Below are positions 24,595 through 35,950 of a stretch of 35,950 bases of DNA, one piece after another. Where the stretch lies: assembly GCA_017399035.1 (NCBI GenBank), contig JAFQEM010000030.1, forward strand, positions 1 through 35,950, written 5' to 3'. The notes beneath the pieces were generated by a model. The model was not told the origin of the DNA. It saw nothing but the letters and a program-made list of their open reading frames with translations, and ran no database searches. This stretch comes from Clostridia bacterium. GTDB lineage: Bacteria; Bacillota; Clostridia; Christensenellales; Borkfalkiaceae. Each line of letters opens with the position of its first letter. The stretch's first letter is position 1. A program made the translations under genes and the position numbers.

Positions 24595-24665
24595 AGCAGG
24601 TGATGAGAATCGAACTCACAACCACAGCTTGGGAAGCTGTTGTTTTGCCACTAAACTACACCTGC
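24592..24665 (-). tRNA. tRNA-Gly, anticodon CCC
   Basis: Read on the minus strand, a 71-nt tRNA plus encoded CCA. The acceptor stem is GCAGGTG paired with CACCTGC, the D-arm region GTTTAGTGGCAAAAC, the anticodon stem ACAGC/GCTGT around loop TTCCCAA (anticodon CCC, reading GGG glycine codons), and the T arm GTGAG-TTCGATT-CTCAT. The discriminator base is T. Upstream lie 122-bp tandem repeats rather than a recognised promoter; downstream is the 20-bp inverted repeat. Confidence 0.95.
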
Positions 24666-25067: not shown

Positions 25068-25096
25068 TTGATAAATTTTAATTTATGTGTTATAAT
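25068..25096 (+). promoter_or_regulatory. Predicted sigma-A promoter of SPFH gene
   Basis: Plus strand TTGATA (25068-25073), 17 nt, TATAAT (25091-25096), about 30 nt upstream of the ATG. This is the only plus-strand promoter with a matching gene in the window. Confidence 0.8.
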
Positions 25097-25126
25097 TTTA
25101 AAAAATTATGTTTGGAGAACCGTATT

Positions 25127-26182
25127 ATGGCTTTATTTTTAAGAATTCTTGAATGGTCTGATAATTCTAACGACACTTTAGTTTATAAATTACCACTTAA
25201 AAAAGGCGGTAGAGAAATCAACCACAAAAGTAAACTTATTGTTAGAGAATCTCAACAGGCAATATTTGTTCACAAAGGGCAAATTTGCGACATATTCCCC
25301 GCAGGTACTTACGACCTTAACACAGATATCTTCCCTATACTATCTAAACTTGCTGGTTGGAAATATGGTTTTCAAACACCTATTTCAGTAGACGTTTATT
25401 TTGTAAACACTAAACAATTTACTGGTAACAAATGGGGAACTGCTAACCCCATTATGATGCGCGACCCCGAATTTGGTGCGATTAGAGTTAAAGGTTTTGG
25501 CTCTTACGCTTTTAAGGTTGACGACGCAGGCGTGTTTATGAAAGAACTTTTTGGCACAAATTCCACTTTCTTAACCGAAGATATTACCGACTGGTTAAAA
25601 ACTATGCTTATCTCTGCGCTTACCGACGCTATAGGCGAAAGCAAAATCTCTGCGCTTGACCTTGCAGGTAATACTTTAGAATTTAACCAAATAGTAAAGG
25701 CAACTATACAAAACAAGTTTAAAGAAATAGGTTTGCTACTCACTAACCTTTTCATTGAAAATATGTCCGTTCCACAAGAAGTTGAAAAGGCTATTGACGA
25801 ACGCAGTAAACTTGGAATTTTGGGTGATAAAACTGACGTTATGATGAAAGTTGCGGCGGCAGAGGCAATGAAAGACGCTGCTAAAAACGAAGGTATGGGC
25901 GGTGCGTTTATGGGCGCAGGCGTTGGGCTTGGCGCAGGCGCAGGTATGGGTAGCATTTTTGCCGACGCTTTTAAGGGTGCAAGTTCTTCTACCCCCACCC
26001 CCGAAAAAGAAAAACCGCAAGCAGAAAAAACTTGTTCGCAATGTGGTGCAAAAATTAGCGCAAAAGCAAAGTTCTGCCCCGAATGCGGTGCAAAAGCACC
26101 TTCAAAAAAGTTCTGTTCTGAATGTGGCGCAGAACTTGGCGGTTCGGGTAAATTTTGCCCCGAGTGTGGCGCAAAACAATAA
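25127..26182 (+). CDS. SPFH-domain protein with C-terminal zinc ribbons, YdjI-like
   Basis: A 351-aa protein of the SPFH family often annotated virion core protein and including B. subtilis YdjI. The ATG at 25127 follows a GGAG site; the frame begins at 25085 but that part lies before the transcription start region. The SPFH domain covers roughly residues 20-230 (SKLIVRESQQAIFVHKGQ, AGTYDLNT, GSYAFKVDD). Next come an alpha-helical stretch and a Gly/Ala-rich segment (GAGVGLGAGAGMG), then two zinc ribbons made of repeated CSQCGAK/CPECGAK pairs. In B. subtilis YdjI works with YdjG and PspA at stressed membranes; a YdjG-like gene lies 3 kb away. Its terminator is shared with the convergent AEC gene. 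Confidence 0.85.
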   Translation: MALFLRILEWSDNSNDTLVYKLPLKKGGREINHKSKLIVRESQQAIFVHKGQICDIFPAGTYDLNTDIFPILSKLAGWKYGFQTPISVDVYFVNTKQFTGNKWGTANPIMMRDPEFGAIRVKGFGSYAFKVDDAGVFMKELFGTNSTFLTEDITDWLKTMLISALTDAIGESKISALDLAGNTLEFNQIVKATIQNKFKEIGLLLTNLFIENMSVPQEVEKAIDERSKLGILGDKTDVMMKVAAAEAMKDAAKNEGMGGAFMGAGVGLGAGAGMGSIFADAFKGASSSTPTPEKEKPQAEKTCSQCGAKISAKAKFCPECGAKAPSKKFCSECGAELGGSGKFCPECGAKQ

Positions 26183-26242: not shown

Positions 26243-27211
26243 CTAAATTATTAAACACAAAAGTAAATATAAGAGCGGAATTGTAACAACGGATAAAACT
26301 GTGTTAAAAAGCGTATAAACCGTTCCGTTATCTGTGTCGCCGTTATACGCATCTGCAAGCGCAGTCGATAAAGCAGCGGTGGGCATTGCAAACGCAATAA
26401 ACATTGTCATAACCATATTTTCGTCAAGCCCAGCAAATCGGTAAAAAATTAAGGTTACCGCAACTGAAAACACGGGGATTAAAACGAGTTTTATAAACGC
26501 AACGTAATAATTCTTCCACGACGCAAACAGCGCGCTTAACTTTATTCCCGCCATCTTAATGCCAAGTATTGTCATAGAGAGCGGTGTAACTATTCCCTTA
26601 AAATAATCTGAATAACTTTGAATTTCAGGTAGATATTTCTTTACGCCGACTAGATTTAATATTATACCCAACACGAAAGAAATAAGCACGGGGTTAAGAA
26701 AAACCTTTTTTATATCTATAGTCTGCTTATCCCCCGAAACCAAATAAGTGCCAAGCGTATATATGAGAGTGTTATTAACGATATTTGCCACTACTAAATA
26801 CGTTACCACTTTACTTGACGCACCAAAAACTGCGGCGGCAAGGGGCAAACCTAAAAAACCGTTATTAGAAAATATTGCGCAAAAACGTTCCATTCCCTTT
26901 ACTTTTTTGTTCCAAAGCGCGTCGTTACTTTTATTGTCAGTTGCAAGCGCGCCAGACAAAAAGAAAAAGAATAAAGTAAGCACGGTAGATATAAGCGCCG
27001 ACCACAAAAGATTTAATGCAGTTTTGCCGTTTAAATCAACGCCAAGCGTACCCGAAAGGATAAGAAACGGCATGCCAACAAGCGTCAAAAGTTTTGAAAA
27101 TACGCCAGAGTGTTCGGATTTTAGACATTTACATTTAACTAAAACGTAACCTGGAACTGCAAGTAGAATAAAAATTATTACGTTTTTAAGCATAGGGAAA
27201 AAAGTGTTCAT
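26243..27211 (-). CDS. AEC-family transporter (auxin efflux carrier type)
   Basis: A 322-aa integral membrane protein of the AEC family, whose bacterial members move organic acids such as malate or malonate. Ten hydrophobic segments can be drawn, split by a charged loop near 90-110. Family features include FSNNGFLGLPLAAAVFG (about 114-130), the NVI-like ANIVNNTLIYTLG and the C-terminal half's AFAMPTAALSTALADAY. Its ATG is 1 nt after the stop of the ceramidase-like gene and has no ribosome site, so translation is probably coupled. The location suggests export or import of an acid linked to the neighbouring sugar pathway, an inference only. Confidence 0.87.
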   Translation of the reverse strand: MNTFFPMLKNVIIFILLAVPGYVLVKCKCLKSEHSGVFSKLLTLVGMPFLILSGTLGVDLNGKTALNLLWSALISTVLTLFFFFLSGALATDNKSNDALWNKKVKGMERFCAIFSNNGFLGLPLAAAVFGASSKVVTYLVVANIVNNTLIYTLGTYLVSGDKQTIDIKKVFLNPVLISFVLGIILNLVGVKKYLPEIQSYSDYFKGIVTPLSMTILGIKMAGIKLSALFASWKNYYVAFIKLVLIPVFSVAVTLIFYRFAGLDENMVMTMFIAFAMPTAALSTALADAYNGDTDNGTVYTLFNTVLSVVTIPLLYLLLCLII

Positions 27212-27212
27212 A

Positions 27213-28562
27213 TTATTTTTCTAGCAATTCTTTAAGAATTTTTTGACCTTCTTCGATAATTTTTTCGGCAACGCCCTCTTTAAAATTAGATGCCTTTGCC
27301 TCGTAACCACCCTCTTTATAAGCGTCTTTCATAGGGAAATAGCCTTCTTTTGCATTAGTATTGCAAGTGGGCAAAATAAGGTCGTATCCACTAGTTTCTT
27401 TAAGCCCTCTACCCACGCCGGTAAACGGTTCCCCTGGAATACCGAACATAGCAACCGAACCTATTCTAACCGCAGAAAAAAGCATAGGGAAAGTGTCGGG
27501 CGCATTTTCTAGCCTAACCTTTCTTGCGGAATCAGCAACAACGGTTGTTAGCATCATTGCCTTGAAAGGTATTTCATCATCTCGCCCAGCGTTGTGCAAA
27601 TCGTTATATTTATGAGCAAGTGGCATTTCTTCAGCAGTGGGCTTATTTGAAGGAATTTGCACGATTTTTTGCACGTAATCAATAGAATTTACAGGTATGT
27701 AGTTTACTTTATCAAAAACTTGAAGAACGGCGCCCGTTACTACCCTTGCCATATATTTTGTATGAGCATATCCACGAGAACAACCGTCAAAATCGTTAAA
27801 CATTCCGTTAAAGTCGCCAGAAGTTGGAAAAACTTTAACGTGGTTTACGTCACCTTGCGCGCCGTTAAAGAATATACATTTTACGTCGTCTAGCACTTTT
27901 TCAACAGTATGTCTAGTAAGAGTTGGCCAGTCGCCTGATATAAGTTCGCCACCAACGGTATCGGGGTGATTAGCAAAGTTTACCACAACTACCGAAGACG
28001 CATTTTCTCTATCAAAACGAAGAACGTTTACCCTTTCGTCAACTTCGCCTATAGGTTCTTTTATGTCGGGATTATTAACTCCAGGGTTAGTGCGAATTGA
28101 ACCGTCTTTCATTCTAAAACGACGGATAAAAGCAATGTTTGGCGCATTGCCTATTCCGTAACCAAGAACGGCGGGTTTTAAATCTGCAAGCGCGCATTTA
28201 GAAACTTCAATAAGTTTTTCACATAGCGTTTGTTTGTATTCGTTTATAAGCACGTCGTCAGTTTCTGGCAAGAGCATAGGTCCTGTGTGAGTGTGCGTAG
28301 AATGTATATAAATTGCATCCATAGGCACGTTTGTGTTTTTGCTTATTTCACTTCTATAAACGTCTAAAATAGGCTTAACCAAACCGCAGTGGTCTACGGC
28401 AATAAGCAAAACCTTTTTATCCCCACAAGAAATAGCAACGGCGTTTGCCTCTAAATCATCTAAAACGCCTTTTGCAAAACGGTCTACGTAATACCCTGCT
28501 ATGCGTATGCCCATAGGTGGATTTATTACTATGCGTGAAAAACCAACTTCTAACTTTTTCAT
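27213..28562 (-). CDS. Neutral/alkaline ceramidase-superfamily protein, distant paralog
   Basis: A 449-aa cytoplasmic protein (no signal peptide) of the neutral/alkaline ceramidase N-terminal-domain superfamily. The zinc pair is HTHTGP (His90, His92), with His199 in FANHPDT and Glu378 in GIPGEPF as the remaining ligands, and a Tyr-rich GYFPMKDAYKEGGYE segment. At the position of the ceramidase nucleophile Ser (Asn-Ala-Gly-Asp-x-Ser-Pro) the text reads GAQGDVNH, with Asn240, so the usual chemistry may be altered. It lacks the C-terminal immunoglobulin-like domain of true ceramidases. The AAGGAG ribosome site is 18 nt after the chromate-transporter pair. The substrate is unknown; lipid ceramide is unlikely inside the cell. 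Confidence 0.78.
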   Translation of the reverse strand: MKKLEVGFSRIVINPPMGIRIAGYYVDRFAKGVLDDLEANAVAISCGDKKVLLIAVDHCGLVKPILDVYRSEISKNTNVPMDAIYIHSTHTHTGPMLLPETDDVLINEYKQTLCEKLIEVSKCALADLKPAVLGYGIGNAPNIAFIRRFRMKDGSIRTNPGVNNPDIKEPIGEVDERVNVLRFDRENASSVVVVNFANHPDTVGGELISGDWPTLTRHTVEKVLDDVKCIFFNGAQGDVNHVKVFPTSGDFNGMFNDFDGCSRGYAHTKYMARVVTGAVLQVFDKVNYIPVNSIDYVQKIVQIPSNKPTAEEMPLAHKYNDLHNAGRDDEIPFKAMMLTTVVADSARKVRLENAPDTFPMLFSAVRIGSVAMFGIPGEPFTGVGRGLKETSGYDLILPTCNTNAKEGYFPMKDAYKEGGYEAKASNFKEGVAEKIIEEGQKILKELLEK

Positions 28563-28580
28563 TTTATTCTCCTTAAAAAA

Positions 28581-29186
28581 TTATACAATTACACCATATA
28601 ATAGCAAGCCAAACAATGCAGATATGATTATTAGCAATATAGGTGAAATTTTCTTTTTTGTTATTTTTTTATAAACCAAATGCGTAGTTGCAACTATTGC
28701 AAATATTATAAGCGCTTTCCAGTCAAAACTAAATGCGTCGTAAACGGTAGAAAGTGAAAACATAACGCTCAAAAACATTGTTACTGCCGTGCCTAAAATT
28801 AAGCCGACTACAACGGGGCGCAAACCTTCTAAAAAAGCCTTTACACCTGCAAAATGCAAAAGCCCCTTTATAACTGATGCCACTACTAAAATAATAACGA
28901 ACGACGGCAACACCACGCCAAGAGTTGCGCAAAATGCGCCAAGTAAACTAAACCCTATCCCCCCCAAGGTTGCGCCTTGAGTTGCGCCGATAAATGTTGC
29001 CATATTTATTGCAATAGGTCCTGGGGTAGATTCTGCAACGGCAATAAAGTTCATAACTTCTTCATAAGTCATCCAACCGTGAGAAATCACTTCGTCGGTA
29101 ACAAGTGGAATCATTGCGTAACCACCGCCGAAAGACACCGCGCCTATTTTAAGAAAAGTTAAAAACACTTCTAGGAGTAAAAGCAT
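28581..29186 (-). CDS. Chromate-transporter-family protein, half size (second of pair)
   Basis: A 201-aa membrane protein covering one chromate-transporter domain; long ChrA proteins contain two. Seen: FGGGYAMIPLV at 19-29, the signature AESTPGPIAINMATFIG at about 51-67, a GVVLPSFVIILVV helix, and a C-terminal hydrophobic half. Its ATG shares one base with the stop of the first half-gene (TAATG), so the two are made together and probably form a heterodimer. Members of this family occur widely in anaerobes with no chromate exposure; the real substrate here is unknown. Confidence 0.9.
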   Translation of the reverse strand: MLLLLEVFLTFLKIGAVSFGGGYAMIPLVTDEVISHGWMTYEEVMNFIAVAESTPGPIAINMATFIGATQGATLGGIGFSLLGAFCATLGVVLPSFVIILVVASVIKGLLHFAGVKAFLEGLRPVVVGLILGTAVTMFLSVMFSLSTVYDAFSFDWKALIIFAIVATTHLVYKKITKKKISPILLIIISALFGLLLYGVIV

Positions 29187-29806
29187 TATTCTCTACCCCC
29201 TTGTTTAGCGTCGTCTTTATCTTCAATTTTTTTCTTATTGCGGTTTTTAATATAACCTATTAAATAAACGGTAAGACCAACCACACCGCCTATAAGAATA
29301 TAGAAAATGCTAGAAAAATCTATTGCAAACGCAGAAAAACCCACTAAACATAATATAGTAAGTATAAGCATTATTAGATTTACGGGTGTTTTTTTTACGC
29401 CTTTTACCATTTTTAAGCCTGCAGATAATATTAAAAACACTACGCACGCCTGTATTCCACGGAAAGCATATTGCACCCAAACGAATTGCAAAAATTTATC
29501 AAAGACAAGTGAAATGCAAAATATAATGATAAATGACGGCAACACTACGCCAAGCGTTGCAAAAAGTGAACCTAAAACGCCCGCGTTTTTATAACCTATA
29601 TAGGTAGCGCTGTTTATTGCAATAGGTCCTGGGGTAGATTCTGCAATGGCAATAACGTCAATAAATTCTTCGTGCCCTATCCACTTTTTTTTCTCAACGA
29701 ACTCTCTTTCCATAATGGCAATCATAGCGTAACCACCACCGAAAGTGAACAGACCTATTTTAAAAAAGGCTAAAAATAATGCTAATGCTCTTTTAATTTT
29801 TTCCAT
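29186..29806 (-). CDS. Chromate-transporter-family protein, half size (first of pair)
   Basis: A 206-aa single-domain ChrA-family protein starting at the ATG at 29806; an in-frame TTG four codons upstream (29818) is possible but lies closer to the ribosome-site-like GGTTGGA. Motifs mirror its partner: FGGGYAMIAIMEREF, IAIAESTPGPIAINSATYIGY and GVVLPSFIIIF. The tail is charged (NRNKKKIEDKDD), probably cytoplasmic. It begins the four-gene operon ChrA-ChrA-ceramidase-like-AEC, which has a promoter at 29827-29856. Its link to the nearby sugar genes is unproven. Confidence 0.9.
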   Translation of the reverse strand: MEKIKRALALFLAFFKIGLFTFGGGYAMIAIMEREFVEKKKWIGHEEFIDVIAIAESTPGPIAINSATYIGYKNAGVLGSLFATLGVVLPSFIIIFCISLVFDKFLQFVWVQYAFRGIQACVVFLILSAGLKMVKGVKKTPVNLIMLILTILCLVGFSAFAIDFSSIFYILIGGVVGLTVYLIGYIKNRNKKKIEDKDDAKQGGRE

Positions 29807-29826
29807 AATTTTATCCAACCTTTTTT

Positions 29827-29856
29827 ATTATACATTTATTTTAAATATTATGCAAA
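29827..29856 (-). promoter_or_regulatory. Candidate promoter of ChrA-AEC operon
   Basis: TTTGCA (29851-29856), 18 nt, TATAAT (29827-29832) on the minus strand, 20 nt upstream of the ATG. The -10 is perfect, the -35 matches 4 of 6. Confidence 0.6.
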
Positions 29857-29883
29857 CTTTTTGCACTCTTTTATTGCGTCAAC

Positions 29884-29920
29884 AAAAATAAAAACACCGC
29901 CCAAACAATGAACGGTGTTT
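29884..29920 (-). terminator. Terminator after isomerase-like gene
   Basis: On the minus strand AACACCG pairs with CGGTGTT around a 13-nt loop, followed by TTTATTTTTG. It closes the ceramidase-like/kinase/isomerase transcript 16 nt after its last stop codon. Confidence 0.85.
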
Positions 29921-29936
29921 ATAAATTTAATAGTGA

Positions 29937-31280
29937 TTAAATAATTTCAATACCTGTGAGAGCGCAGAAATCTTTGATGATTGCCGTGTTGTCGCCATAA
30001 GAAATTATATAGTGTTGACCCATAACGTTTTGAGCAAAGTGTTCGGTGTCGGCAAGCAACACTTTAAGACCTGCAAGTTGCGGAGCGGGTTTATCCCAAC
30101 CGCATTCTTCCCAAGTTTCGGGGGTAGTGCCTTCGCCAGTTACCATATGCAAATAATATTTGCCATCGGTAAAGGTCAATCTGCACATTGTGAGAAGTCC
30201 CGTTTTAACCTTTGAAACGTTAAGCAAACTTTGTGATAATTCGCCAAACGCTGCAGGATAAACTGTGGTTTTTCCGTCAACGACTTCTACGGGAACGTAG
30301 TCAGGTACGCCAGCCAAAACGCCGTCTTCAAAATATTCATAGAACTCAAGATATGCGCCTATTTGACCAGTCAATTTATTTACCATAATTTGAGTTACGT
30401 TGCCCAAGCAATCGTTTTCAGGGATAGTGCAAAGTCCGTCTTCAGCAAGAAGAGTAAAGATAGGTGCGGGTGGGAAACCTAAAAGTTTCTTAAATCCGTC
30501 AACGTCTTTAAGAGAGATTGCGTTCAATCCCCTCTCATTGCAAATTTCTTTAACTGCAAGATAATATTTAGCAGCGTTTTGCATAGCCTCTTCGTCAGGG
30601 GTTTTTAAGAAGTTCCACTTCTTAATTCTTTCATCAATTACCTTTTGAACGTCTGCTTTAGCAATTTTGTCTGCTCTTTGAACAACTTCAAGCATATCAA
30701 AACATTCAATTTCCGTGCCAACCGCTTTCTTTAATGAAAGGCCGTCGAACATAGTTCCATAAAGTTGCATATCTCTATAACCAACTTGACCAACCCTTGC
30801 GGTACGCATTGCAGAATATGCGCTTGCTGCTTTAGCAAAAGTTAAAACCTTGTCAACGTTAGATGGTTTTTTAACGATATCATAAACGTATTTGAACTTT
30901 ATTCCCATATCTGAAAGAGCCTTTCTCAATGCAGAAGTACCTGCTTGGTCAGCAGTGGTAACCAAATGCCCGTCTTCATACCAACCGCAAAGCCCCCAAA
31001 GAACCATAGGTTTATCTTTGAACTTGTCTAAAACTTTAACTACTGCGTGAGAAGGTATCCAACCAGCAACGCAAAGAACCATAACGTCAAATTCTTTATC
31101 TGAAAAATATTTTACAGCGTTGTTGATATAAGTTTCTTCGTAATCGTCACGAATAGGATAGAAAGGATAAACTTCGGTTTCGTTAGTTTTAAGGCTTTCG
31201 CAAGCGGCTTTACACTTTCTTTCAATAACTTCTATCGGCGTGTTTACTTCGCCGAATCCAGCAAATGCAATTTTAATCAT
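29937..31280 (-). CDS. L-fucose/L-arabinose isomerase-like protein
   Basis: A 447-aa protein of the FucI/AraA superfamily, which interconverts aldoses and ketoses using a divalent metal. N-terminal Rossmann-like domain: KIAFAGFGEVN, then VLCVAGWIPSHAV (69-80) and a VLWGLCGW segment. Candidate metal ligands are Glu288 in IPENDCLGNVTQ, Glu312 in YLEFYEYFEDG and His423 in MGQHYIISYGD, in the order known for fucose/arabinose isomerases. It is shorter than FucI (about 590 aa) and AraA (about 500), which fits the divergent group of unknown sugar specificity. It overlaps the kinase by 4 nt (ATGA), strong evidence that its ketose product is the kinase substrate. Confidence 0.82.
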   Translation of the reverse strand: MIKIAFAGFGEVNTPIEVIERKCKAACESLKTNETEVYPFYPIRDDYEETYINNAVKYFSDKEFDVMVLCVAGWIPSHAVVKVLDKFKDKPMVLWGLCGWYEDGHLVTTADQAGTSALRKALSDMGIKFKYVYDIVKKPSNVDKVLTFAKAASAYSAMRTARVGQVGYRDMQLYGTMFDGLSLKKAVGTEIECFDMLEVVQRADKIAKADVQKVIDERIKKWNFLKTPDEEAMQNAAKYYLAVKEICNERGLNAISLKDVDGFKKLLGFPPAPIFTLLAEDGLCTIPENDCLGNVTQIMVNKLTGQIGAYLEFYEYFEDGVLAGVPDYVPVEVVDGKTTVYPAAFGELSQSLLNVSKVKTGLLTMCRLTFTDGKYYLHMVTGEGTTPETWEECGWDKPAPQLAGLKVLLADTEHFAQNVMGQHYIISYGDNTAIIKDFCALTGIEII

Positions 31281-32692
31281 TTAAATATCTCCATCAATTT
31301 TTTTTCTTTTTCTTTATAATCTGCGTAAACTTTTTCATACGCAGGGTTATCCACTTTATAAGATTTATCGGTGGCAACTATGCTTTGGGTGGCTTTTTGT
31401 TCGTTTTCAAAAACACCGATGCCTACGCCTGCAAAAATTGCGCTACCTAAACAAGCCGTTTCGTTTTGCTTTAAGGTAACTATCTCTTTACCTAAAACGC
31501 CCGACTTAATTTCGCACCAAAGTTTTGAGTTTGCGCCACCGCCCATTGAACGAATTTGGTCTAAAGATACGCCCATAAACTCAACGTATTCTTTAATCAT
31601 ATACGCAACAGATTCCATAATAGCGCGAACGAAGTGTCCCCTTTCGTGCTTTAATTCCACGCCAAAGAAAACGCCTTTTGCGTTAGGTTGATTTTCAGGC
31701 ATAACCGTTCCGCAAAGGTGCGGAAGAGCAATAAGCCCCTCACAACCAGCGGGAACTTTTTCTGCTATTTCGTTTAGTTCTTTATAGCCTAAACCTTCGC
31801 AAAGGTTACGCTTAAACCACTCTAAAACCGCGCCGGCAGTTGGTGCCCACATCAAAAGACAATAAACGCCGTGCCTTACGTAATAGATAGAAACTTTAAG
31901 CCCCTCGTAATAAGGTGGAAATTTTTCGGTAATTGCGCAAACAGCCAAAGCCGTGCCTGTGGTTTCACTCATAACGCCTTCTTTAACAACGCCTGCACCC
32001 GTTGCGCCTGCAATTTGGTCAAGCGCGCTAGTAACAACCGTTATTCCGTTATATTCACCAACCACTTCGCCACTCTCTTTAAGTTCGGGAAGTTGCGCTG
32101 TCGTTATGCCTAAATATTCAAGCATTTCGGGGATATATTCGCCCGTTCTTATATCCATAAGAAGTGAAGAAGAGTAGAGTGAACGTGATGCGGCAAACTT
32201 GCCTGTCAAACGATAAATTATATAGTCTTCTAAAAGCAAAAACTTATCTGCTTTAGCAAAAATTTCGGGTTTGTTATCTTTAATCCACTCAATTTTAGGC
32301 GCAGGATATCCGGCAGGAATTTCCGCTTGACCAGTAAGATTATAAATTTTTTCAAGCCCAAACTTTTCTTCCATACGCTTTGCTTGAACTTCTGCCCTGT
32401 TGTCAAGCCAAATAATGGCGTTCATAAGAGCGTTTCCGTTTTTATCAAGCACAATCATTGTTTCGCCTTGCGTGTCAAGAGCAAGAGCGTCAACCTTATA
32501 TTTGCAAGTAATTTTTGCAACCGTATCAGAAAAAACCTTAAAAAATTCTTCTGCGGGAAACTCTATAAATTCCCCTTCGGTTATAAGTTTATACTGTGCG
32601 GACTCTGATGCGAGAAGGTTGCCTTTTTCATCAAAAAGGCAAGCCTTTAACGCAGTTGTTCCAAAGTCTACGCCAAGTAGATTTTTACCCAT
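31277..32692 (-). CDS. FGGY-family carbohydrate kinase (xylulokinase-like)
   Basis: A 471-aa ATP-dependent sugar kinase. The N-terminal actin-fold phosphate loop is LLGVDFGTTALKACLFDEKG (5-24), WLDNRA lies at 95-100, the catalytic base is probably Asp225 in TSALDQIAGATGAG, and the C-terminal ATP site includes SMGGGANSKLW. The length and motifs are closest to xylulokinase-type members, but FGGY substrate calls need context; here the neighbour is a fucose/arabinose-isomerase-like protein, so the substrate is likely a pentulose or deoxy-hexulose. It starts 18 nt after the ceramidase-like gene with a GGAG site and ends inside the isomerase start. Confidence 0.88.
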   Translation of the reverse strand: MGKNLLGVDFGTTALKACLFDEKGNLLASESAQYKLITEGEFIEFPAEEFFKVFSDTVAKITCKYKVDALALDTQGETMIVLDKNGNALMNAIIWLDNRAEVQAKRMEEKFGLEKIYNLTGQAEIPAGYPAPKIEWIKDNKPEIFAKADKFLLLEDYIIYRLTGKFAASRSLYSSSLLMDIRTGEYIPEMLEYLGITTAQLPELKESGEVVGEYNGITVVTSALDQIAGATGAGVVKEGVMSETTGTALAVCAITEKFPPYYEGLKVSIYYVRHGVYCLLMWAPTAGAVLEWFKRNLCEGLGYKELNEIAEKVPAGCEGLIALPHLCGTVMPENQPNAKGVFFGVELKHERGHFVRAIMESVAYMIKEYVEFMGVSLDQIRSMGGGANSKLWCEIKSGVLGKEIVTLKQNETACLGSAIFAGVGIGVFENEQKATQSIVATDKSYKVDNPAYEKVYADYKEKEKKLMEIFK

Positions 32693-32710
32693 AGTAGTCA
32701 GTTCTCCAAA

Positions 32711-34219
32711 TTAAAACTTTTTATTGATGCGTTCTAACGTTTCGCGAACGAGAATATCGCCACCAACGTGACCAGTATATCCGCTACTTACGTAAGCAGA
32801 ATAGTGACTGCCTTGTTCTGCCTTTTTGGTAGGAAGATATCCGTCTGCACCGCAAGCAAGTTGGATAAGGAAAGTTTGTTTTGCTTTACTTCTTGCTCTA
32901 ATTTGGTTGCCGTAGTCAAGGAAGAGTTCAAACGGGTTAGTTGCAATAGCAATATCACCAAAACGAATGATATGAATTTCTTCTTTGAAAGTGTTTACTT
33001 TTTGTTGTAATTCATAACGAACAACCGTACCAGCGTAAACGTGCATTGCAGCGTTATCTGCGAAAGATATTCTTCTGCCACGATTCTTTTCAATGAATTT
33101 TTCTAACTTTTCAATGGCGTTTTCATAGTCTGCAATAGTTACCCTACGTAAAGGTAAGGTTATATCAAAGGTTTCGTGAACTAGCAAGCCTTCGTCTTTA
33201 AGGTCATCACCAAGTTCTTCAAACACGCTGATAATTTCGTTAGAAATTCTCTTACCAACGAGTTTAAGACCAGACACGTCGAACATAGAGGGGTCTGCTC
33301 TTCTTTCAACAATATAATCTCTCTTGATGTTGGGGTCGTCGATAGGTGTTTCTGGCTCTACCCAACGGATAATATCTCTTGGGCATTGGTCGCCTGCCGC
33401 AGAGCAAAGACCTAAAACTTGAATATGGTCGCCGTATTTAGCGCGCAAGTTTGCCTTAACCTTTCCCCAGTAGTCTGAAGATATGTAACTTCTGTGTTCA
33501 ACAACTTGCGCAGGGCAAGCAATGTTTGCGATAACGCCAGAGAGTTGCTTATTTTCGTCGTAAGTGTAGATAAGTTCTATACCGGAGTCGTTACCAGCCT
33601 CAAGTTCAACGAAGTTTGCCTTGTTGGTTTCGCCCCACATTTTAGCAGAACCGTCATCATAAACGGCACGGCGGTTCATACCAACTACTGCACGTCCGAA
33701 AGCGTTTTGATAGTAAGCAGGTTTTCTGTTGTTCCACGCTTCGGTAACGGCTTTGCAAATAGCGTTTACCAAAACTTCTAAACATTGTTTGGGTGAAAGA
33801 CATTCTTCATTGCTAACCAAAGGTTTATAAGCCATATCTTCAGGAATAATTTCTTTTAAATATTGCAAAGTATTTCTTGATGCTTGACCGTTTTTACCGC
33901 CTGCAACGTAACTTTTTCTTTCATAAACCATTGAAGTATGGCTGTGAATTGCGCTAACGATAATTTTATCTAACGGCAAATCTATTGTTCCTGCAAGTTT
34001 TTCTCTAACTGCATCCATTACGTTAGAACCGATTGCAACTATATCGCAAGCAGCGATAACCATTTGGTCGTCACCACTCTCTAAAGCGAAAGCAGTTACC
34101 GTAATGGGTGATTCAACTTCGTCGGTAATTCTTTCAAAGAATTGACCTGCAAGGCTAATTTTTGTTCCTTTTTTCGGGGTCATATCAACTTCTGACCAGC
34201 CGATTTTAATTTTTGACAT
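32711..34219 (-). CDS. Ceramidase-superfamily hydrolase with Cys at nucleophile position (paralog A)
   Basis: A 502-aa protein without signal peptide, similar to the neutral/alkaline ceramidase N-terminal domain. Ligand motifs: AIHSHTS (His92, His94) and Glu431 in NPFELF, with a Tyr-rich SHYSAYVSSG near 471-480. Two deviations stand out. The third zinc-ligand position, His-Pro in ceramidases, reads IACPAQ (Cys235), and the nucleophile position reads AAGDQCPRD (Cys279 for Ser). A predicted cysteine-dependent, zinc-assisted hydrolase acting on an amide, ester or lactone of a sugar fits the neighbours (kinase and isomerase downstream), but this is inference. AAGGAG ribosome site. About 80-85% identical to paralog B over the C-terminus. 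Confidence 0.78.
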   Translation of the reverse strand: MSKIKIGWSEVDMTPKKGTKISLAGQFFERITDEVESPITVTAFALESGDDQMVIAACDIVAIGSNVMDAVREKLAGTIDLPLDKIIVSAIHSHTSMVYERKSYVAGGKNGQASRNTLQYLKEIIPEDMAYKPLVSNEECLSPKQCLEVLVNAICKAVTEAWNNRKPAYYQNAFGRAVVGMNRRAVYDDGSAKMWGETNKANFVELEAGNDSGIELIYTYDENKQLSGVIANIACPAQVVEHRSYISSDYWGKVKANLRAKYGDHIQVLGLCSAAGDQCPRDIIRWVEPETPIDDPNIKRDYIVERRADPSMFDVSGLKLVGKRISNEIISVFEELGDDLKDEGLLVHETFDITLPLRRVTIADYENAIEKLEKFIEKNRGRRISFADNAAMHVYAGTVVRYELQQKVNTFKEEIHIIRFGDIAIATNPFELFLDYGNQIRARSKAKQTFLIQLACGADGYLPTKKAEQGSHYSAYVSSGYTGHVGGDILVRETLERINKKF

Positions 34220-34410
34220 AATTATTTCTCCTTTTCTTAATTACTAATTCTTAATTTTTAATATTATCAACTAATAGAATTTAATGTTTTGCTTGCAATT
34301 AAATGATTTAATAAAGGCTTTGCCTTTACTGCAAAACTGGCGTTTTGCGATTTCTAAATTGAAATACGGCGAAGATTTCCTTGTGTGCAAACAAAACGCA
34401 AACTTTTTGT

Positions 34411-34440
34411 ATTATATTCTAAACGGCACGACTATGTCGT
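34411..34440 (-). promoter_or_regulatory. Promoter-like element in repeat unit 1
   Basis: Minus strand ACGACA (34435-34440), 18 nt, TATAAT (34411-34416). The -10 is perfect; the -35 keeps only GACA. Directed toward paralog A, about 190 nt from its ATG. Confidence 0.4.
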
Positions 34441-34544
34441 AAAGGCGCTATCGCCCCTAAAACTTTTTCATTAAAATTCAAAAGTTTGCCGTTATTATGA
34501 AATACTGCGAAGATTTCCTTGTGTGCAAGCACATATTTCCTTGT

Positions 34545-34574
34545 ATTATACTCTAAACGGCACGACGTTGTCGC
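34545..34574 (-). promoter_or_regulatory. Promoter-like element in repeat unit 2
   Basis: Minus strand GCGACA (34569-34574), 18 nt, TATAAT (34545-34550), the same arrangement as in the neighbouring unit. A third TATAAT (34685-34690) lies in the partial unit but without the -35 part. Confidence 0.4.
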
Positions 34575-34730
34575 AAAGATACTAACGTATCAAAACTTTT
34601 TCGTTAAAAACTCAAAAGTTTGCCGTTATCGTGAAATACTGCGAAGATTTCCTTGTGTGCAAGCACCCAGATAAATCTTCTTGTATTATAACTCAAAAAT
34701 TTGAGTTTGTGACTTTTTTTATTAAATTTG

Positions 34731-35950
34731 TTAAAATTTAGCGTTTATTTTTTCTAATGTTTCGCGAACTAATATTTCCCCACCAACGTGTCCCGTTGTT
34801 CCTGAAGAAACGTATGCTGAATAGTGACTGCCTTTTTCTGCTGTTTCCGTGGGTAAATATCCACCGCAACCACAAGCAAGTTGGATAAGGAAAGTTTGTT
34901 TCGCCTTACTTCTTGCCCTTATTTGGTTACCGTAATCAAGGAATAGTTCATAAGGATTGGTTGCTATCGCTATATCGTCAAAACGAATTACGTGTATTTC
35001 TTCTTTGAACGTATTTATGGTTTGTTGCGCTACGTATCTATCAACTATCCCTGAATAGATATAGAGCCTTGCATTTTCTTCATAAGTTACTCTCTTTCCA
35101 CGATTGTTTGCTATAAACGTATCTATCCTATTCTTTGCATCTTCATATTCTTCAATAGTTACTCTACGAAGTGGGAATGACATATTGACCGTTTCGTGAA
35201 TTAAAACACCCTCGTCTTTCATTTTAGATAAATCTAGTTCTTCAAATACGCTAACTATTTCGTTAGAAATTCTCTTCCCCACGAGTTTAAGACCAGAAAT
35301 ATCATACATGGACGGGTCTTGTCTTCTCTCAACTGGATAAACGTGGTTAATGTTGGGGTCTTCTACTGGTGTTTCAGGCTCTACCCAACGTATTAAATCT
35401 CTTGGGCATTGGTCGCCTGCTGCAGAGCAAAGACCTAAAACAAAAATTCTTCTACCGAATTGCTTTTCGAGATTTTCTTTAACCTTTCCCCAGTAATCTG
35501 AAGATATAAAGTATCTTTGTTCAACAACTTGCGCTGGGCAAGCGATATTTGCTATTACGCCGTTTACTTGTTTATCTTTATCAAAGGTGTAGATAAGTTC
35601 TATACCGCTATCGTTTCCGCTTTCTAAATGGCTAAAGTTTGCCATATTAGTTTCGCCCCACATTCTTGCGGAGCCATCGTCATAAACCGCTCTACGGCAC
35701 ATACCTACGGGCGCGCGACCAAACGCGCATTGATAATATCCTTCCGTTCTATTTTCCCAAGCAAGTAAAACTGCTTCAGTTATCTTTTCGACAAGGAAAT
35801 TGAGTGCGTCTTCGGGGTCCATCGCATTTTCGCCACTCGTCTTTGAAAGGTAAGCCATATCTTCTGGAAGATTTTTCTTTAGGTAGTTTTCTTGAATAAC
35901 GTAACCTAACGTTCTAACCTGTTTATAAGTATATGAAGTGTGGGTATGTA
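34731..35950 (-). CDS. Ceramidase-superfamily hydrolase with Cys at nucleophile position (paralog B, N-terminus cut by window edge)
   Basis: The same family as the gene at 32711. The frame stays open from the stop at 34731 to the right edge (406 residues seen). The Met at 35858 is internal, because the upstream codons encode HTHTSYTYKQ, the zinc-binding pair found near residue 92 in paralog A. About 90 N-terminal residues are outside. Cys for His (IACPAQ) and Cys for Ser (AAGDQCPRD) are both conserved, as are NPYELF and GSHYSAYVSSG. The central part differs more than the C-terminus. It is upstream of paralog A on the same strand, so it may be the earlier gene of the same operon or have separate expression through the repeats between them. 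Confidence 0.82.
   Translation of the reverse strand, partial: HTHTSYTYKQVRTLGYVIQENYLKKNLPEDMAYLSKTSGENAMDPEDALNFLVEKITEAVLLAWENRTEGYYQCAFGRAPVGMCRRAVYDDGSARMWGETNMANFSHLESGNDSGIELIYTFDKDKQVNGVIANIACPAQVVEQRYFISSDYWGKVKENLEKQFGRRIFVLGLCSAAGDQCPRDLIRWVEPETPVEDPNINHVYPVERRQDPSMYDISGLKLVGKRISNEIVSVFEELDLSKMKDEGVLIHETVNMSFPLRRVTIEEYEDAKNRIDTFIANNRGKRVTYEENARLYIYSGIVDRYVAQQTINTFKEEIHVIRFDDIAIATNPYELFLDYGNQIRARSKAKQTFLIQLACGCGGYLPTETAEKGSHYSAYVSSGTTGHVGGEILVRETLEKINAKF

Follow-up and report, generated by a model that had tools for sequence, protein, structure and literature searches.

A recurring gene set of ceramidase-like proteins, a sugar isomerase and a sugar kinase in gut Clostridia points to a route for a modified sugar

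Introduction

What would relatives of neutral ceramidases do beside the genes of a sugar isomerase and a sugar kinase? The question is raised by a contig of a Clostridia bacterium (GenBank assembly GCA_017399035.1, contig JAFQEM010000030.1, here C29), which was analysed over its entire length of 35,950 nucleotides (the window) and belongs to a draft genome (G000) of 1.53 Mb that is 69% complete. One end of it carries genes for two hydrolases of a single ceramidase-superfamily subfamily (H, with the copies H1 and H2), a kinase (KIN) and an isomerase (ISO):

34731..35948, minus strand: H2, second hydrolase of the H subfamily (ceramidase superfamily), truncated where the contig ends
32711..34219, minus strand: H1, ceramidase-superfamily hydrolase of the H subfamily
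31277..32692, minus strand: KIN, FGGY kinase (Pfam FGGY_N, FGGY_C)
29937..31280, minus strand: ISO, probable isomerase of the AraA/FucI superfamily

A first-pass annotation had read these genes, together with a third ceramidase-superfamily protein and several carriers in an adjacent unit, as a locus for the breakdown of a sugar conjugate. Our comparison with other genomes indicates a recurring gene set in herbivore-gut bacteria that points to an undescribed route for a modified sugar. We consider it somewhat more probable than improbable that H, KIN and ISO form one front end of a modular catabolic pathway for modified sugars. This holds for the general scheme; our confidence in any particular named substrate is much lower, and an acylated, perhaps amino, sugar is the substrate class that fits best.

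Linkage of H, ISO and KIN across genomes

Three collections were examined: a set of 151 relatives, an even draw of 391 genomes from the class to which the window belongs (the class sample), and the H loci of named genomes, which are the best 80 of 200 confirmed H relatives. Some of these 80 loci share one genome, and some of their contigs are identical to contigs in the other two collections. In the relatives and the class sample, proteins were included from 100 bits upward for H, 370 for ISO, 200 for CerB (the second ceramidase-superfamily subfamily, see below) and 350 for YjbQ. The CerB limit excluded G110 (117 bits), and a cut YjbQ piece of G017 (120 bits) was taken as present in the co-occurrence count only. 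KIN was called present in a relative at E ≤ 1e-80. The models for KIN, TIM (triosephosphate isomerase), SIS (a sugar-phosphate isomerase), YjbQ, FSA (an aldolase) and the other locus families were derived from the loci that they later scanned, which by itself gives members high scores; the identities from Pfam and NCBIfam stated below do not depend on these models.

Among the relatives, H occurs in 21 genomes, ISO in 22 and both in 21 (Fisher p 8e-25, with related genomes not being independent). The two genes are at most 10 kb apart in 19 of the 21, the remaining two (G012 and G017) carrying them on separate short contigs. The class sample gave a similar picture, with ISO in 30 genomes (G267, at 134.8 bits, excluded; G391, a cut piece of 261 bits, retained), H in 33 and both in 28. 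By the listed coordinates, H and ISO share a contig within 12 kb in 19 of these 30 genomes, as read from a list of H places that is incomplete, with at most three candidates scored per genome; counting G521, where a truncated H piece adjoins ISO (L238), would raise the number to 20. In 57 of the 80 H loci ISO is a same-strand neighbour of H at no more than 6 kb, and KIN is within 6 kb in 38, while YjbQ (19), FSA (16), TIM (15) and SIS (14) are found less often at this distance; 13 loci contain all of H, ISO, KIN, TIM, SIS, YjbQ and FSA somewhere. The expectation of the first-pass annotation that the ceramidase-superfamily hydrolase would recur beside isomerase and kinase is thus borne out, in the relatives as well as in the named loci. 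KIN itself gave one match each in 32 of the 151 relatives, and 30 of those 32 genomes possess H or CerB. The gap between H and KIN is 18–27 nucleotides in seven genomes, measured between match ends; each genome entered these measurements with a single H position (the window's contig with two), leaving out further H paralogs of G000, G003, G006, G017, G019 and G043. The record titles of 49 of the 80 loci name a ruminant gut sample and those of two name horse faeces.

Kinship and altered active site of the H hydrolases

Searched singly, H1 and H2 matched no Pfam family, and H1 matched no solved structure. The kinship emerged through relatives and profiles. PF04734, the neutral/alkaline ceramidase family, matches 11 of the 20 members of the H alignment at E ≤ 0.01 (best 2e-7; H1 itself is not among them) and finds the H paralog on contig C10 of the same genome at 31.8 bits, or 32.3 with neighbours, for a cut-off of 32.1. 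In the reverse direction, a profile of the 20 members finds the neutral ceramidase chains 4wgk (E 0.0016) and 2zws (E 0.013) and scores 14.9–145.2 bits on eleven proteins found by PF04734. Judged from these sequence comparisons, H1 and H2 are relatives of neutral ceramidases.

The active site was compared in an alignment of 101 sequences, of which 85 are H, 6 are CerB and 10 are PF04734 proteins taken from nine of the phylum's genomes. The columns of the alignment were computed; the roles of the aligned residues as zinc ligands and nucleophile are those that we take them to have in neutral ceramidase. The H proteins keep His92, Asp249, Glu431 and Tyr461 in 85 of 85 sequences and His94 in 84, and thereby the HxH motif, Glu and Tyr of the metal site. 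The column of the second zinc histidine holds Pro in all 85 H proteins (motif CPxQ) as opposed to His in 10 of 10 PF04734 proteins and 6 of 6 CerB proteins, a difference that can equally well be read as loss of the His through deletion of a single residue. At the column of the Ser nucleophile, H has Cys in 81 sequences, Ser in 2, Ala in 1 and Asn in 1, and this column is variable in the reference PF04734 set too (Ser 5, Asn 4, Arg 1 of 10). H is thus a ceramidase relative in which two defining features, the second zinc histidine and the Ser of the nucleophile column, are lost or exchanged; it might still work as an amidase. The zinc-activated nucleophile invoked in the first-pass annotation may accordingly apply to H only in altered form.

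The reading frame of H2 starts at the His-Thr-His (HTH) motif that corresponds to residue 92 of H1, so that about 91 residues are missing. H2 is 98% identical over 405 residues to the copy on contig C10 of its own genome (95% over 1199 nucleotides at the DNA level). Several H copies lie at or near the ends of contigs (C29, C21 and C24), and C19 holds a 48-residue start piece. Together, the position of these copies and the near-identical copy on C10 suggest that repeated H genes probably broke the assembly.

Identity of the isomerase and the kinase

Both Pfam domains of KIN score above cut-off (FGGY_N 176.6 bits, FGGY_C 84.2 bits). The closest NCBIfam model is the xylulokinase XylB (TIGR01312), whose equivalog cut-off of 380.25 lies well above the 283.6 bits obtained. 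ISO reaches 24.3 bits for AraA_central (cut-off 24) and 23.8 for Fucose_iso_C (cut-off 29.3), and of the members of its alignment 15 of 16 and 16 of 16, respectively, match these families at E ≤ 0.01. The score is far under the cut-offs of the AraA (33.9 vs 622 bits) and FucI (26.1 vs 850) models, and the nearest NCBIfam model, that of the sulfoquinovose isomerase SftI (NF048012), gives 63.7 bits for a cut-off of 700. The columns of E288, E312 and H423, presumably the metal ligands, are invariant in 55 of 55 sequences; eight remoter homologs have E/Q, D/E and H at the aligned positions. In G332 another SftI-like protein, which reaches 98.6 bits with NF048012 (cut-off 700), is encoded beside FSA and ISO (L225:6946-8352).

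CerB and the neighbouring unit

The remaining features of this part of the window are the following, where the hairpin and the promoter-like site come from consensus scans only:

29920-29892, minus strand: terminator-like hairpin of 12 pairs with a T-rich tail, after the H-KIN-ISO unit
29856-29827, minus strand: promoter-like site between the isomerase and ChrA genes
28581-29186 and 29186-29818, minus strand: half-ChrA pair (Pfam ChrA)
27213..28562, minus strand: CerB, second ceramidase-superfamily subfamily, weak match to Ceramidase_alk
26243..27211, minus strand: AEC carrier (Pfam Mem_trans), last gene of the CerB unit
25085-26182, plus strand: SPFH/Band-7 protein with zinc ribbons
24595-24665, minus strand: tRNA gene

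The open reading frame listing, Pfam and, for the ceramidase kinship of H, its relatives and profiles agree with the gene content first described: three ceramidase-superfamily proteins, an FGGY kinase, an AraA/FucI-type isomerase whose gene overlaps that of the kinase by 4 nucleotides, two half ChrA proteins and an AEC carrier. These genes are all on the minus strand, and 117 nucleotides separate ISO from the first half-ChrA gene. The terminator-like hairpin and the promoter-like site would divide them into two adjacent transcription units, as had been proposed, on scans that returned 14 terminator-like sites for 10.4 expected and 29 promoter-like sites for 23.3 expected.

CerB, like H a protein of 450–500 residues, scores 19.2 bits against Ceramidase_alk (cut-off 32.1), and a single-sequence search against solved structures gave three chance-level matches only. 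It keeps both zinc-histidine columns and has Asn at the Ser nucleophile column in 6 of 6 sequences. In eight genomes of the relatives CerB and KIN are at most 10 kb apart, and in five at most 100 nucleotides. Four of these five pairs (G001, G011, G023, G025) are on the same strand and one (G037) is on opposite strands. In the four same-strand genomes CerB directly follows KIN, at gaps of -1 to 11 nucleotides between match ends, and the genome has no strong H or ISO. The tie of the second ceramidase-like protein to the kinase is thereby upheld outside the window, and KIN is present in 25 of the 30 genomes with CerB. NagA-like and NagB-like genes join the run in G011, G023 and G025, not on the stretch of G001; that of G011 reads, on one strand, CerB-KIN-RPE-FSA-YjbQ-TIM-SIS-glycerate kinase-NagA-like-NagB-like, RPE being ribulose-phosphate 3-epimerase. 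From these arrangements, CerB and H/ISO seem to be two front ends that feed one kinase core.

The carriers fared differently. The ChrA halves (148.4 and 180.2 bits) are above the Pfam cut-off and below the cut-offs of three matching NCBIfam chromate models; the AEC carrier has 92.2 bits to Mem_trans. Contig C3 of G016 repeats the gene order of the window in a block SPFH-AEC-CerB-ChrA-ChrA, but what comes next, after some 4 kb, is YjbQ-TIM-NodB-SIS and not ISO-KIN-H. Over all these arrangements CerB is tied to the kinase core, and ChrA and AEC are tied to it weakly. ChrA was considered as a regular partner of H and rejected, being found in 1 of the 80 H loci, and the proposal that ChrA and AEC are regular parts of the pathway is not sustained.

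Shared core, uptake and accessory genes

For the window's genome, C29 supplies H, ISO and KIN, and SIS, TIM and YjbQ are grouped on contig C23 with genes for NodB-type and PIG-L deacetylases. The same stretch (L184:7655-17366) also contains an AEC-like carrier gene, recognised by eye, and NagB-like, mannitol-1-phosphate-dehydrogenase-like and PfkB-like genes. Sigma-factor-like and anti-sigma-like genes, likewise recognised by eye, are found near YjbQ-TIM-SIS in two genomes (L241:6527-8034 and L184:17659-18998). The NCBIfam cut-off is passed by TIM (PRK04302 type), YjbQ, the epimerase (ribulose-phosphate 3-epimerase) and the glycerate kinase subfamily.

The first-pass annotation had placed an aldolase and an uptake system past the right edge of the window. 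An FSA/TalC-type aldolase does occur in fuller versions of the gene set, and FSA is present in G011 and G039 of the same genus, but none was found in the window's own genome, so that an aldolase beyond the right edge is not supported. As to uptake, the place immediately upstream of H is taken by an MFS gene in the close relatives G019 and G043 (L062, L065), and this carrier is the likely importer there. Of the 80 H loci, 30 have a member of one of four MFS groups. Genes for M20-type or NagA-like amidohydrolases occur in 22 of the 80 and for CapA-type proteins in 15, and at least one operon (L217) also encodes an oxidoreductase of the Gfo/Idh type and an aminotransferase of class III. That amidases and deacetylases recur, with a deaminase-like and an aminotransferase protein, favours N-acyl or amino sugars as substrates, on circumstantial grounds.

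Discussion

The proposed route would begin with import of the modified sugar by an MFS carrier such as that encoded beside H in the close relatives. H, presumably a cytoplasmic metal-dependent hydrolase of neutral ceramidase descent, would then remove an acyl group or open an internal amide or ester, as its family suggests. ISO would convert the freed aldose into a ketose, consistent with its family and its conserved metal-ligand columns, and KIN, whose family is clear, would phosphorylate the ketose at a predicted site. The core, which is linked to these genes, consists of archaeal-type TIM, SIS and YjbQ, joined in fuller versions by an aldolase of the FSA type, and would lead to central metabolism. 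Elsewhere the place of H and ISO beside the same kinase is taken by CerB, often accompanied by NagA-like and NagB-like proteins, which suggests acylated, partly amino, sugars as substrates. A more specific version is tentative and, in all its detail, doubtful: a modular system, not described before, by which Clostridia of herbivore guts would break down acylated sugars, amino sugars among them, with two interchangeable entry amidases of the ceramidase superfamily and one kinase core. In it H would act through a rewired site, with Cys as the nucleophile and a metal centre that has three ligands or is completed by Cys.

Several results weigh against the pathway proposed here. A zinc ligand is missing from H, which makes its catalytic competence putative. 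In the class sample H occurs without ISO in five genomes and ISO without H in two. ISO is missing from 23 of the 80 H loci, 20 of which carry not one of the five core genes, indicating that H also exists outside the gene set, with some loci being cut by contig ends; 18 of the 57 loci with ISO lack all of KIN, TIM, SIS, YjbQ and FSA. In none of the 80 H loci is ChrA within 6 kb of H. The SIS, FSA, NagA-like and NagB-like proteins are below curated cut-offs: the NagA model gives 144.6–153.9 bits vs 225.65, and the NagB model 32.1 vs 236.9 in one protein and no match at E ≤ 1e-8 in another. No FSA was detected in nine genomes of the family to which the window belongs, its own genome being one of the nine, with positive controls 4/4. 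The pathway may consequently finish without FSA in this lineage, for example through xylulose-5-phosphate.

These observations bear on three other explanations. ISO and KIN could serve an ordinary free pentose or deoxyhexose, the hydrolases being dispensable passengers or meeting another need. Xylulokinase as the nearest model to KIN, the 23 loci without a nearby ISO and the LacI or DeoR regulators and MFS carriers, which we take to be typical of ordinary sugar operons, all agree with this. Yet H accompanies ISO in 21 of 22 ISO genomes of the relatives and 28 of 30 of the class sample, the gaps of H and CerB to KIN are tight, and ISO is far under the AraA and FucI cut-offs, and we regard an ordinary sugar as unlikely. 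Even less likely, in our view, is that H is no longer a hydrolase and acts as an epimerase, lyase or binding protein on the sugar itself. The loss of the second zinc His in every H protein and the Cys for Ser in 81 of 85 would fit such a change, but the retention of His92, His94, Asp249, Glu431 and Tyr461 points to a working metal site, and the invariant Cys235 and Gln238 could stand in for the lost residues.

The two units may also be neighbours by accident, with H-KIN-ISO as the pathway and ChrA-ChrA-CerB-AEC unrelated to it, an explanation that is compatible with H-KIN-ISO as a sugar front end and that we think possible if rather improbable. It is suggested by the terminator-like and promoter-like signals between the units, by the block of G016 that stands without H-KIN-ISO, by the single H locus with ChrA and by the distances among the relatives, where CerB is within 10 kb of H or ISO only in G000 and G067. 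Against it, the same kinase directly adjoins CerB in four other genomes, most CerB genomes carry KIN, and G016 and G036 have a ChrA pair in the same stretch as YjbQ-TIM-SIS.

The modified-sugar scheme resembles several known systems in part. H shares homology and the HxH, Asp, Glu and Tyr columns with the neutral/alkaline ceramidase family, and CerB both zinc-His columns; unlike neutral ceramidase, H is without the second zinc His and has Cys for Ser, and the genes of H and CerB stand beside that of a sugar isomerase or kinase. The sulfo-TAL pathway of sulfoquinovose, which we take to contain the SftI isomerase and the SftT transaldolase and no FGGY kinase, YjbQ, TIM, SIS or ceramidase-like hydrolase, is similar in that ISO is nearest to SftI and in that isomerase and FSA-type protein share one operon in fuller versions, and differs in the low ISO score and in the missing FSA of the window's genome. 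Sulfoquinovose was considered as a substrate for the nearness to SftI and set aside on this score and the partner genes. Catabolism of arabinose, fucose and xylose (AraA, FucI, XylB) offers what is probably the same isomerase superfamily, an FGGY kinase and the operon layout, whereas here every score is under the equivalog cut-off and a hydrolase is regularly alongside. Amino-sugar catabolism (NagA, NagB) has its counterpart in the NagA-like and NagB-like genes beside CerB and the same kinase core in relatives, but these proteins are under the cut-offs and neither was identified in the window. SrfJ is, as we take it, a member of a glycosidase family and therefore not the same thing. This putative ceramidase of inositol gene clusters (PMC9430895) was considered and set aside.

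No description of the gene set or of the H active-site pattern was found in the open literature, a search that left subscription papers and bioRxiv preprints mostly uncovered and is weak evidence of absence. Within this limited test, the single parts are of known kinds while their combination and the H active-site pattern are apparently new. If the proposed route is correct, it would provide a pathway and a chemistry for the H and CerB subfamilies, for an SftI-like isomerase and for one lineage of YjbQ, a protein whose role is, to our knowledge, open. The search for the substrate would then be simple, with few genes, a predicted order of steps and acyl sugars that can be screened. Many of the bacteria that carry the gene set come from ruminant guts, and 'ceramidase' labels on such gut genes are probably no sign of sphingolipid turnover.

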